From Mixia osmundae IAM 14324 (lineage: Eukaryota; Basidiomycota; Mixiomycetes; Mixiales; Mixiaceae), in the NCBI RefSeq assembly GCF_000708205.1, contig NW_014575561.1, positions 628,299-692,298 on the forward strand: a stretch of 64,000 nt of DNA, given 5' to 3'. The translations under genes were made by a program, and so were the position numbers. Positions 7,369 through 56,161 of the stretch are shown here, piece after piece. The notes beneath the pieces are model-generated. The model was not told where the DNA came from and searched no databases. It saw nothing but the letters and a program-made list of their open reading frames with translations. Within the stretch, counting starts at the first letter, position 1; each line of letters opens with the position of its first letter.

Positions 7369-9953
7369 CTACTCTTCGTCCCCAAATTTACCCTCTGGAA
7401 GCACGTTGAGATCATGCTCCTCTGCGTCAAGCTGCGAGCAAGGTCAGCCAAAGTTCGCTATGGCTCTTCAACGAGTACGCACATGACGGAAACAGAGCCA
7501 GAAGGCGATGCCGCCACCAGCTGCAATACCAGCTGCCGATCCATAGTTGATCTGAAGACCTATGAGCTGAGCATGCAGCGCCGATACGTGAGACTTACGA
7601 CTAGGTAAGGATCTGCTGATAACGTGACGATGGCTTCACCGATCGCGCTAGAGACAGCTGATTCGAATAGGAAGATGGCCATGACGAGAGATCGCATGCT
7701 CTTGGGAGCCTGCCGGACCAGCATCAGCCGGGAAGGTAGCCAGCACAGCACGCGTTGCATACCTTTGTAAAGGCATATTCGAGACCGGCAATGCTTGCGA
7801 AGATTTCCGAGATTGCGATTAGGATATAAGCTCTGCCTGACGATTGAGCATTGTCATACGACGCCGAAAGCAGCTTTACCCGGATTGAGCCCAGACGTTG
7901 ATAGGCGAGACGATGGGATTCTGATCCTTGTCAACGCAGGTGCTGATTGTATTGCCGCAAGACGTTGAGTTGTAGATGTACTGCTGCAGCACAGTGGCCC
8001 AGACCATCGCGAGCGCGCCGGTCATAAAGCCGGCTGTGATCTTCTTGATTGGCGTAAAGTCGACGCCGAGACGCGCAATGCCGGGGTAGATGAGCTGCAA
8101 GTCCAACGATGGTCAGCTTGGCAGATCGCATTGCTGTCCATGCTGACCTTGTCAAAGACCGGGATAAGTACGATGAGTGCAAAAGGGTCCAAGTTGCTCA
8201 GAACATCGTTCGGAATATGATGGGTGGTCATCGTGGCAGCTTGCGAGGTCAAGTTGTTGTTGAGCTGGTTGTACGAGAGCCAGTAGAGAGGGTAGAAAGT
8301 GAAGACCGCGCATGCTTTGAAACCGCGGCGAACTTCGTCGACGAAGGCATCGTCCCACTGGACGATGGCACCTCTGCAAACTCGTAAGCATGGAGTCTGG
8401 GATGATGGACTGAAGCTGACCGAGAGGGTTTCGCTGGCTCCCAGAAGCCAGGAGCGTTCCAATTCTTGATGAGCTGAACGGGGTTCCAGGAGAACTTGCC
8501 AGCGAGACTGCGGCCGAGGACACGCATGGAAGAGCCAAAGACCGAGCCAGCGGGAGGCTTCTTCGTGTATCTTGAGTTGGCGGCCCAAAGTACGAATGGG
8601 CACAGACAGAAGACGAGGGTGGGCAAGGCATAGGCGAGCCAGAAGCCGACCTGTACCTCTTCATGAGCCTGGTCGTGGCTCGTCAGTGAAGCGAGCGCAC
8701 CATCTTTTCGGCCCAGGCCATGCCGATCTGGCCGAGCAGGGCGCCGATGTTAATGGCGAGGTAAAAGTACCTGCAGCGGAGCCATCAGCAGCCATGCAGA
8801 TAGACTTGGCAGCACTCACTGATAGATGCGGGAGACGGTCAAGGCAGGATCGATGATGACGGTTTCACCGGTAGGAAGATTGCGCAAGAATGGTACAGTC
8901 GGCTTGTACTGTTCTGCCACGAGGGGCGAGATATTGGGCTGTGGGCATCGTGTGATCAGCTATGGCCTATACTTCCCTAGTAGAACGCGCCTTGAATCCA
9001 CCTGTACTGCGCATTAGCTGCCAGCTCAGTCAGCGCCAGAACAGACTAACCTGTGCCAAGGCCCATGAAGAGCAAGGCGACGATGAAGACCGGCAGGGCT
9101 TTGCCAAGCTCGCCAATGACACCGGGGAGGGCGGAGACGATAAGGAGAGCGTGACCGACGAGAGCGATAACGAGAGAATAGACGATGGTCTTGTACCGTC
9201 CAAAGTAGCTGTCTGCTACGTAGCCACCGAGGAGCGGACAGAGATAAGCATAGAATGAAAAGGCAGTCGTGATGCCCGTCGAAGCCTGTTGGCCCATGCC
9301 TGACCGCCGCGTCGCGTTAGCTCACTGTGAAAGACCGAGTGAGGAAGTTACACACCAAGAGCGCCTGACTGGCCATTGAAGCCACCTGCGCCAGTAGGAC
9401 TGGGCAGCTTTTGCTGAATGAAGTTGGTGAAGACGACTGCAGGAGGCTCAGCGAAGGCTCGTGGCTGTGGCTCGATAGACTTACCCGTGCAGCCATACCA
9501 CGAGAAACGCTAGCGCGCAATGTCAGTCACCAAGCAAATGGGTGGCAAGGGGATGTACCTCTGCAGGCAACGTGATTAGCTCTAGCCTGGGCAGCACAGC
9601 AGAAACGTACCAGCGAGTTCGACAAAGGCGATCAAGCTACAACGAGCCCAAGCGATCAGACACAAGAGAACGATCGCCGAGGAAGACGACTGACTAGGCA
9701 GGCCACGGCAGATTGTCTGAGATGCGACGGAGATTGGCCATATCCTCGAGTGTAGGCAAAGGGTTGCCGAACTCATCGTGGGAGGCCGATTGTGTGATGA
9801 TGTCGTAATGCTTGTCCTTCTTCTCATCGGTAAAGGTCAAGACTTCGTTTGCACCTGATTGATGCGTTGTCATGAGCTATCGGGGTGGCGCACTTATCGG
9901 CGAACAGTGAGCTTACTGACGGGCGACTCATGTTCATGCAGCAGTCCAGACAT
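7369..9953 (-). CDS. PTR2: Proton-coupled oligopeptide transporter (POT/PTR family)
   Basis: Seventeen exons add up to 1,764 bases, 587 residues: 9953..9917, 9854..9695, 9636..9611, 9560..9559, 9509..9485, 9436..9356, 9299..9051, 9001..8991, 8938..8820, 8770..8701, 8650..8421, 8373..8148, 8094..7880, 7832..7763, 7709..7599, 7551..7483, 7431..7369. Family motifs include FVELAERFSWYG in the first membrane helix, GGYVADSYFGRYKT, GGFKPNISPLVAEQ, FYLAINIGALLGQ and the late APKSMRSLVMA/LEYAFTK region. Members import di- and tripeptides with protons through 12 helices in the plasma membrane. Two oddities stand out: an apparent 2-nt exon (AG at 9559-9560) and an 11-nt exon followed by a GC-AG intron. 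Frame, length and motifs all agree with this model. Confidence 0.93.
9559..9560 (-). other. PTR2: Apparent 2-nucleotide coding exon of PTR2
   Basis: The two bases AG lie between a 50-base intron (9561..9610, GTACGT...CTGCAG, branch-like GCTAATC) and a 49-base intron (9510..9558, GTACAT...GCTAG, branch-like CTGAC). Joined with the flanking exons they complete the Glu codon in ELAERF, an invariant part of the POT family motif. Skipping both bases shifts the frame, and retaining the first intron meets a stop. A 23-nt exon using an upstream TAG acceptor would keep frame but needs a 29-base intron and inserts seven residues in the motif. Confidence 0.75.
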
Positions 9954-19759: not shown

Positions 19760-21058
19760 ATCAGGACCCGGTCGTCCGTTCGTCAGGCACACGTCGTCTG
19801 CCTGCTCGCAAGCATATCATCATCGAGCAGTACCAGCACTTCTGCCTCATCGCACAGCGTTGGAACTGGCGATTGTACCCTAGTCCTCACGTCATCGAAA
19901 GAAAGATCTTACTTTTTCGGTCACAGCGAACAAGGGCCGTCAAAGCTGCTCGTCGAGATGCTGTTCAGCGATTGGAGCAAGATCATGACCTTTCTGATGA
20001 TTCATGTCGTCGTTGTGCCGTTCATTCAGCATGAAATGCTGCACCTTACCTCGCTGCCCGCTATCTTTGTCTACCATCTCGTTGCTCAGCTCCTCTTCCA
20101 TCGGAATATCAACAAGATTCTCGCTAGCGATTTCAGAGTGCGATATGGCTACCTCAAGAAGGACAGCCCGAGGACAAAGCTGCCGGCGGTCGAGCTCAAG
20201 TGGACAAAGATGGGCGGCCTTCTCGGAGCGTTCTTCAGGATAGCGACTCGCAAGTGTCTGATGACAGCGACTGTGGTCGAGCTTATTGGTGCCATTTGCA
20301 GTTTTTATCGCAGATGGCCAGGGCTCAAGGGCGAGCTTCGGCATCTCGCCAACCTGGATTGTGCACTACTCGGCTTATGTTCTTCTTCTAGACTTTGTGT
20401 TCTACTGGTGCGTCCACAGAATCTAGCGCAGTCAGCTGCTGAGCCCCACAATCTACAATCAGGGCGCATCGTACGCAGCACGAACATCCCTTCCTGTACA
20501 AATATGTACACGGCAAGCATCACCGCGCTCACCTGCCTAATGTACTCATGACAGTCCACGATACCATCTTTGAGAAGTTTTTCAATACCTTCATCCAGAT
20601 GTGTCTCATCAACTGGATCATCCCCATGTCCTTCTGGGACCTTCACACGACCGTCGGTGAGCCCTCTGCCTACCTACGTCTCGGGCTGAGTCTTCGACAG
20701 TACTATGCAATCCATCTCATCGAAGCATTAGGCCATTCCGGCATCAAGTGTCATCTGACGAACCCACTAATGCCCTGGCTTGTCTTTTGCAAAACCGAAT
20801 TGAGCATAGAAGGCACGCCTCTGCGCATCTGCGTGAGCGTAAAGCTGATATTCTCGCACAGATCATGATGTAAGTGCATTCTGGGCTACGTCTTGTCCGA
20901 AGCTGACACCCTCCAAAGCTGCATCATCGCAAGCTTCGCGGAAATTACGGCAAGCAGACGCTCGTGTGAGTATGCACGACGTTGCCCTTCAGCTTGCTGA
21001 CTCGACGGCCAGCTGGGATGTGCTCTTCGGCACAAATCTGCCCCGCATCGAGACATAA
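19760..21058 (+). CDS. Fatty acid hydroxylase/sterol desaturase superfamily enzyme, 5' exon unresolved
   Basis: Resolved exons: 19760..20255, 20302..20407, 20463..20812, 20862..20869, 20919..20965, 21013..21058, together 351 codons. The di-iron histidine boxes are HRTQH in YWAHRTQHEHPF, HGKHH in YKYVHGKHHRAHL, and DHDLHHRK near the end. Several membrane helices surround them (IMTFLMIHVVVVPFI; SAYVLLLDFVFYW). Family members oxidise sterols, sphingoid bases or fatty acids in the ER; C-4 sterol oxidase, Sur2 and CER1-like enzymes share the boxes, and I cannot choose among them. The third box exists only if a GC-AG intron (20813..20861) and an 8-nt exon are accepted. The frame is closed just upstream of 19760, so a first exon lies further 5'; the ATG at 19491 is one candidate, over an intron of about 120 bases. 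Confidence 0.8.
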
Positions 21059-24955: not shown

Positions 24956-26929
<1,974 letters not shown>

Positions 26930-54762: not shown

Positions 54763-56161
54763 ATGGCCGTACAGGAACCGACCAGACTGCAGAGCTAGTG
54801 CGTACGAAGTGGCTGACCGGCTCCAGCTGATTGCGCATCTCATCGCTCGCAGTGTTGGCTTCGATACGATCACACGCCAGATTGAGCAAAAGCTACTCAA
54901 GCGAGGTTTCCAGGTGAGCGACCCCTCGGCCGGCTTGCTGACAGTGCTAACGGCAGCCCTCGTCACAGTTCAATGTAAGTAGCGTGCATGAAATGTGCTA
55001 TCCTGCCAGCGACTGATGTGGCTCGTGCAACGACGGCAGGTCATACTCGTCGGCCAAACAGGCTTAGGCAAGTCAACGCTGCTCAACACGCTCTTTGCAA
55101 GCCAGTCAGTCTCGTCTTGCTGCATTTCATGTGCAGCGCTCAATCAATGCGCAGTCTGCTCGACTCGAAAGCTCGACTCGAGGTGGACGAGCCTATCCGT
55201 CAGACGACAGAGATCCAATCTGTCTCGCACAGCGAGTTGTGGGACGTGATCAGCTCTGCGGGCGCTGATCACTGGCTTGCTGTCCAGTCGTTCAAGAAAA
55301 CAATGTCACATTAAGACTGAACATTGTCGACACGCCCGGTTTCGGCGACCTTGTCAACAATGAAGGCTGGTCAGTCGAGGGCTGGTTAGCTACCCACGCG
55401 ATTCTGTGCCTAACGTCAGCTTCTTGAACAGCTGGGACAGCATCATCAAGTACATCAAGGATCAGCACTCGTCCTACCTCCGCAAAGAGCTCACGGCCAT
55501 GCGCGACCGCCATATCCAGGACACGCGAATCCATGCCTGTCTCTACTTCATCGCGCCCACCGGTCACGCTCTCAAACCGATTGATACGATCGTCATGAAG
55601 CGATTGAGCGAGATTGTCAATGTCATTCCGGTCATTGCCAAGTCGGACTCGCTTACGCTCGAAGAACGCGAAGTGTTCAAGCAACGCATCAGAGCCGAGC
55701 TGGCTCATCACAAGATCAGACTGTATCCTTTTGACTCTGAAGATCTTGACGAGTCAGAAGTCCAGCTGAATGAATACATCAGGGTGAGCCCACTTCACCT
55801 TGTCCTGCGGCACTCATCGCTCACCCCGACTGTCAGAACATGGCGCCCTTTGCCGTCGTCGGCTCAGAGCGCAGTGTGATCATCAACGGCAAGACTGTTC
55901 GAGGTCGCAAGAACAGATGGGGCATCGTCAACGTCGAAGACGAAGCGCATTGCGAATTCAATTATCTGCGCAACTTTCTTACGAGGTCAGGCCAGTCGGA
56001 TCCGAGCTTTTCAGTCTCTGATGCCTTTGTCACTGGACAGGACGCATCTACAGGATCTCATCGAGACAACAGCACAGATCCATTACGAGGCATTCAGGAG
56101 CAAACAGCTTCTCGCGCTCAAGGAGTCGAGCGCGAACAAGCAACAAGCTCAGAACGCATAG
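54763..56161 (+). CDS. CDC10: Septin CDC10
   Basis: Nine exons (54763..54797, 54853..54913, 54969..54974, 55040..55104, 55155..55231, 55288..55369, 55432..55783, 55837..55985, 56041..56161) give 315 residues, close to yeast Cdc10. The start MAVQEPTRLQSYVGFDTIT and absence of a C-terminal coiled coil are typical. GTPase motifs: P-loop GQTGLGKST, switch II DTPGFGD, AKSD for guanine binding; the septin unique element includes GRKNRWGIVNVED. Cdc10 pairs form the centre of septin rods at the bud neck or septum. Exon 54969..54974 is six bases and encodes the Phe-Asn in GFQFNVILVG. Intron 55232..55287 is GC-AG (GCGAGT); GT donors nearby are out of phase. Confidence 0.96.

Follow-up and report, generated by a model that had tools for sequence, protein, structure and literature searches.

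The dinucleotide AG at positions 9560-9559, read on the minus strand, is very probably a real, constitutive 2-nt coding exon of a PTR2/POT gene of Mixia osmundae IAM 14324, and this reading of the genomic sequence is strongly supported by splice signals, reading frame and homology. The window, i.e. the whole stretch of DNA that was analysed, comprised 64,000 nucleotides of contig NW_014575561.1. Within it, a first-pass annotation had placed AG between introns of 50 and 49 nt; these coordinates were found to be exact, and the gene was assigned to the minus strand, which the annotation had not given. The two bases complete Glu75, the second glutamate of the helix-1 motif EXXERFXYY. If confirmed, a 2-nt exon would lie precisely within a codon that is critical for function in a well-studied family of transporters.

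Gene structure and the surroundings of the fourth exon

Joining of the 17 exons from 9953 down to 7369 resulted in a stop-free translation of 587 residues, with introns of 47-62 nt throughout the gene (Table 1). Both the protein length and the maintenance of the frame over the 13 exons that follow the 2-nt exon are as had been proposed. The protein was matched by the Pfam PTR2/POT model PF00854 with 265.4 bits (E 1e-78) at a gathering cut-off of 27, and additionally by NCBIfam oligopeptide:H+ symporter models with scores below their curated cut-offs. The predicted gene product is a fungal proton-coupled oligopeptide transporter of the PTR2/POT family. Scans of the viral and prokaryote collections yielded no fungal relative.

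Table 1. Coordinates of the PTR2/POT gene and of the modelled exons and introns discussed in the text (exon boundaries in donors are marked by ^).
Feature	Position	Strand	Description
PTR2/POT gene, whole coding region	7369..9953	minus	17 coding exons, 587 aa
Upstream exon	9611..9636	minus	26 nt, CTTGATCGCCTTTGTCGAACTCGCTG; encodes (Y)LIAFVELA and the G of the Glu75 codon
Upstream intron	9561..9610	minus	50 nt, phase 1; donor CTG^GTACGT, branch AGCTAAT, acceptor CTGCAG
2-nt exon (fourth exon)	9559..9560	minus	AG; bases 2 and 3 of the GAG codon, Glu75
Downstream intron	9510..9558	minus	49 nt, phase 0; donor GAG^GTACAT, branch GACTGAC, acceptor CGCTAG
Downstream exon	9485..9509	minus	25 nt, CGTTTCTCGTGGTATGGCTGCACGG; encodes RFSWYGCT
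Second micro-exon	8991..9001	minus	11 nt, GTGGATTCAAG; encodes GGFK of helix 4; based on homology
Intron after the second micro-exon	8990-8939	minus	GC-AG

The two introns flank one single codon, and both are complete and of normal length. For comparison, 123 introns were modelled in the window, including these two; their median length is 52 nt with a 5-95% range of 44-74 nt (95th percentile 73.7) and a minimum of 41 nt, and a CTRAY-like branch site is located 11-23 nt from the acceptor. The claims that the introns are of ordinary size and that each possesses its own donor, branch-like site and AG acceptor were therefore borne out: the distance from the branch A to the acceptor is 15 nt in the upstream intron and 13 nt in the downstream intron, where the CTGAC branch site is found near 9522. 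The total splice score of the upstream intron corresponds to the 81st percentile of window introns and that of the downstream intron, which has the weaker acceptor CGCTAG^C, to the 20th percentile. Complete signals in two introns of normal length and a need for the exon in both the frame and the conserved protein sequence are among the features expected of an ultra-small constitutive exon, and these were found here.

We infer that the RNA is spliced as modelled with the 2-nt exon. The exon joined to the downstream exon begins AGCGTTTC, and the whole join in the predicted mRNA is GCTGAGCGTTTC. Half-spliced RNA that has lost the upstream intron and kept the downstream one is predicted to read GCTGAGgtacat (GCTGAG, then gtacatcccc), while the opposite intermediate would read CTGCAGAG followed by CGTTTC. 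Retention of either flanking intron leads to a stop within a few codons. If the 2-nt exon is skipped, everything past residue 74 of the 587 is read in a shifted frame, and a stop is met at codon 221, within exon 8 of 16.

EXXERFXYY is a conserved helix-1 motif of POT proteins that is tied to proton coupling (PMC6338836). The local sequence ELAERFSWY carries it with Trp replacing the first Tyr, so that the POT motif of the first-pass annotation is present, whereas its description as invariant was slightly overstated (ERFSWYG here versus the consensus ERFxYYG). Due to the fact that the Pfam PTR2 model starts after helix 1 and does not discriminate between splice readings, this region was assessed with bacterial relatives and a search of the PDB. 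The equivalent position reads CERFSFYG in PepTSo and CERFSYYG in SLC15A1 and SLC15A2, and a glutamate equivalent to Glu75 was present in all 13 of the bacterial POTs in which the motif could be recognised.

The same gene contains the 11-nt micro-exon listed in Table 1, which is followed by the GC-AG intron. An all-GT-AG alternative at this site, with a 5-nt exon TACAG (9006-9002, minus strand), is in frame and obtained the top score among all 5-nt sites, but would replace GGFK by VQ.

Alternative splice readings and statistical tests

A small gene finder trained on the window, with the 123 modelled introns mentioned above, placed the 2-nt exon unprompted. Because the same gene finder produced spurious 1-, 2- and 5-nt exons elsewhere in the window, this choice is weak evidence if taken alone. 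Stricter tests were therefore applied, with scores from a small splice model whose training set contained the two flanking introns (2 of 123). The first was the enumeration of all one- and two-intron solutions between fixed flanks (GT or GC donors, AG acceptors, in frame and stop-free), which gave 31 solutions. The 2-nt exon ranked first among these with a score of 15.4, the next one reaching 6.1 (a lead of 9 nats), and it alone restored FVELAERFSWYG, the ELAERFSWYG motif, as had been claimed for the inclusion of AG. All single-intron solutions were rejected, as was a reading that combines a GC donor with a 14-nt exon.

Two of the other readings deserve description. A 23-nt exon at 9581-9559, with its acceptor at the upstream CTAG, had been named in the first-pass annotation as an outcome that would refute the 2-nt exon; it would be in frame and stop-free, would add the residues ELITLPA and would be recognisable in reads by AGCTAATCACGTTGCCTGCAGAG. 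It is scarcely credible, since its score is 1.1 and the upstream intron would shrink to 29 nt, compared to the shortest modelled intron of 41 nt, and would end ahead of its only good branch site. Moreover, the seven residues would be inserted into helix 1 between ELA and ERF, an insertion that is absent from every POT compared (PDB and bacterial), and the PepTSo match drops from 39.8 to 36.1 bits. A negligible probability is likewise left to one conventional intron that starts at another donor. The best of this kind, a GC-AG intron of 105 nt at 9614-9510, maintains an open frame and yields FVELRFSWYG, but it scores -8.5 and removes Ala-Glu, including the coupling glutamate, from EXXERFXYY.

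The signals of the 2-nt exon were compared with chance expectation by permuting the interior of the 101-nt interval 20,000 times with the outer splice signals (donor, branch site, acceptor) held fixed. The observed score was reached in none of the shuffles, and any AG^A(A/G)^GT in the allowed range occurred in 0.45% of them. Among the 473 AG^NN^GT sites counted over the two strands of the window, the 2-nt exon ranked first by splice signals alone, without homology. These results also bear on the reading that a sequencing or assembly error, or a pseudogene allele with a broken frame, is present and that the 2-nt exon restores the frame by accident. One wrong base could indeed alter the frame; still, an acceptor with branch site together with a donor that gives exactly the conserved residue would not be expected from an error, as the shuffles indicate, and the remaining 16 exons keep an open frame and the correct phase up to a normal C-terminus. 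An error or a pseudogene is accordingly held to be highly improbable.

A different kind of alternative is a single non-canonical GT...CT intron of 99 nt (9610-9512), after which the next exon starts with AGCGTTTC. AG also directly precedes CGTTTC, so that the junction is ambiguous and the resulting mRNA would not differ from the one with the 2-nt exon. Consequently, cDNA reading GCTG-AG-CGTTTC, which had been suggested as a check, is no proof of the 2-nt exon and cDNA alone cannot separate the two readings. The long intron would have to end at a CT although a usable TAG finishes two bases further on, would exceed the 95th percentile of intron length, and would offer no explanation for the complete acceptor and branch site inside it, nor for the complete donor there. 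A CT end is not known as an accepted spliceosomal acceptor. The chance of such an intron is accordingly judged to be remote, and the 2-nt exon remains the preferred reading.

Two further candidates concerned the nature and origin of the intron pair. The arrangement is not a stwintron, as removal of the whole 101 nt would cause a frameshift. Descent of the pair from one tandemly duplicated intron was unsupported, 13% of unrelated intron pairs of the window aligning as well as these two.

Probable intron definition and probable order of intron removal

Intron definition at the 2-nt exon can soundly be inferred, because the window holds further tiny exons in conserved domains, one of 6 nt in a septin gene and one of 12 nt in a VPS4 gene. 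Each intron of about 50 nt would be recognised as a whole unit, one at a time, and the length of the exon would be irrelevant; introns of this size with a CTRAY-like branch near the acceptor would suit recognition across the intron. The footprint of U1 at the second donor would cover part of the first acceptor, and the introns are probably removed in turn because two complexes cannot easily flank two bases. Judged by splice scores (81st versus 20th percentile), the upstream intron would probably be removed first. Its removal would leave GCTGAG^GTACAT, in which the second donor is intact and the last three exon bases are GAG both before and after, in the manner of recursive splicing. With introns of 50 and 49 nt, the gene would, if the exon is confirmed, offer a compact substrate on which two spliceosomes sharing a 2-nt exon could be distinguished from spliceosomes acting in turn.

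Because the exon itself reads AG, it forms a tandem CAG^AG^ with the first acceptor. Inclusion of the exon would require use of the first AG, which is preceded by the favoured C and lies closer to the branch point; use of the second AG would shift the frame and lead to the stop at codon 221. On this basis the 2-nt exon might act as a splicing switch, where keeping AG gives the transporter and use of the second AG, as a recursive site of zero length, gives a frameshifted, degraded mRNA, so that peptide uptake would be tuned by acceptor choice. Such a switch is considered very unlikely. A confirmed 2-nt exon would show the reach of pure intron definition. For a fungus, intron definition was argued from S. 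pombe by Romfo et al. 2000, as cited in PMC11121469.

Known ultra-small exons and other tiny exons of the window

The 2-nt exon adds to a class of exons of one to a few bases that is rare but has been documented before. Exons of 1 nt have been described in Arabidopsis APC11 (PMC4674806), plant VPS55 (PMC8831610) and Fusarium CYP621A (PMC12940212), exons of 2-5 nt in Arabidopsis, Drosophila and human are cited in PMC12940212, and two 3-nt exons in lipS of Dactylellina haptotyla are mentioned in passing (PMC5639578). Exons of a few bases are thus better documented than the first-pass annotation implied in calling them very rarely documented. A literature search on '2-nt exon' wordings gave one paper, on primate HLA-F.

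The closest likeness is found in Fusarium CYP621A, also a fungal gene, in which the ultra-small exon contributes to a codon of the strictly conserved PKG motif and its omission breaks the phase; that exon was inferred from homology and later confirmed by RNA reads. It differs in having one base instead of two and in belonging to an ascomycete P450 gene, and it is backed by about 20 orthologues and RNA support, whereas the exon described here is predicted from genomic sequence. If confirmed, the latter would represent a different fungus and gene from this one published fungal 1-nt case. In APC11 and VPS55, too, a constitutive ultra-small exon has an ordinary GT-AG intron on either side and the frame depends on it; however, they are plant genes whose exons were demonstrated by mutated minigenes or RT-PCR, and the APC11 exon lies 333 nt into 422 nt of intronic sequence instead of between two introns of about 50 nt. 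The lipS gene is likewise fungal and intron-rich with tiny exons, but these have three bases and are in frame. Stwintrons also consist of two adjacent fungal introns removed in consecutive reactions, but there one intron breaks up a splice element of the other and no bases remain between them, whereas here two bases have to be kept in the mRNA. In RS-exon recursive splicing (PMC6224609) the first removal similarly puts a short piece beside a reusable 5' splice site, but mostly long introns or longer exons are involved, in contrast to the introns of about 50 nt predicted here. Exon callers with a minimum exon length would mis-annotate genes of this type.

Tolerance of tiny exons looks general in the window, as judged from the 6-nt septin, 12-nt VPS4 and 11-nt PTR2/POT exons. 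On the plus strand, a possible 8-nt exon was noted at 20862-20869 in a gene resembling fatty-acid hydroxylases (YHDLHH...GNYG), for which the structure further upstream is uncertain. A 2-nt exon predicted ab initio at 25491-25492 in VPS4 (plus strand) proved to be an artefact, reading by hand giving one continuous exon that ends in GGGMGQK, and it warns against trusting ab initio predictions of tiny exons. The 12-nt exon ATTCGAGAAGAG of a VPS4 gene is located at 26321-26332 on the plus strand, within the AAA domain (RRFEKRIYIP). The 6-nt exon TTCAAT (Phe-Asn) is located at 54969-54974 on the plus strand in the septin domain PF00735; it is flanked by introns of 55 and 65 nt and is the top-scoring 6-nt site of the window.
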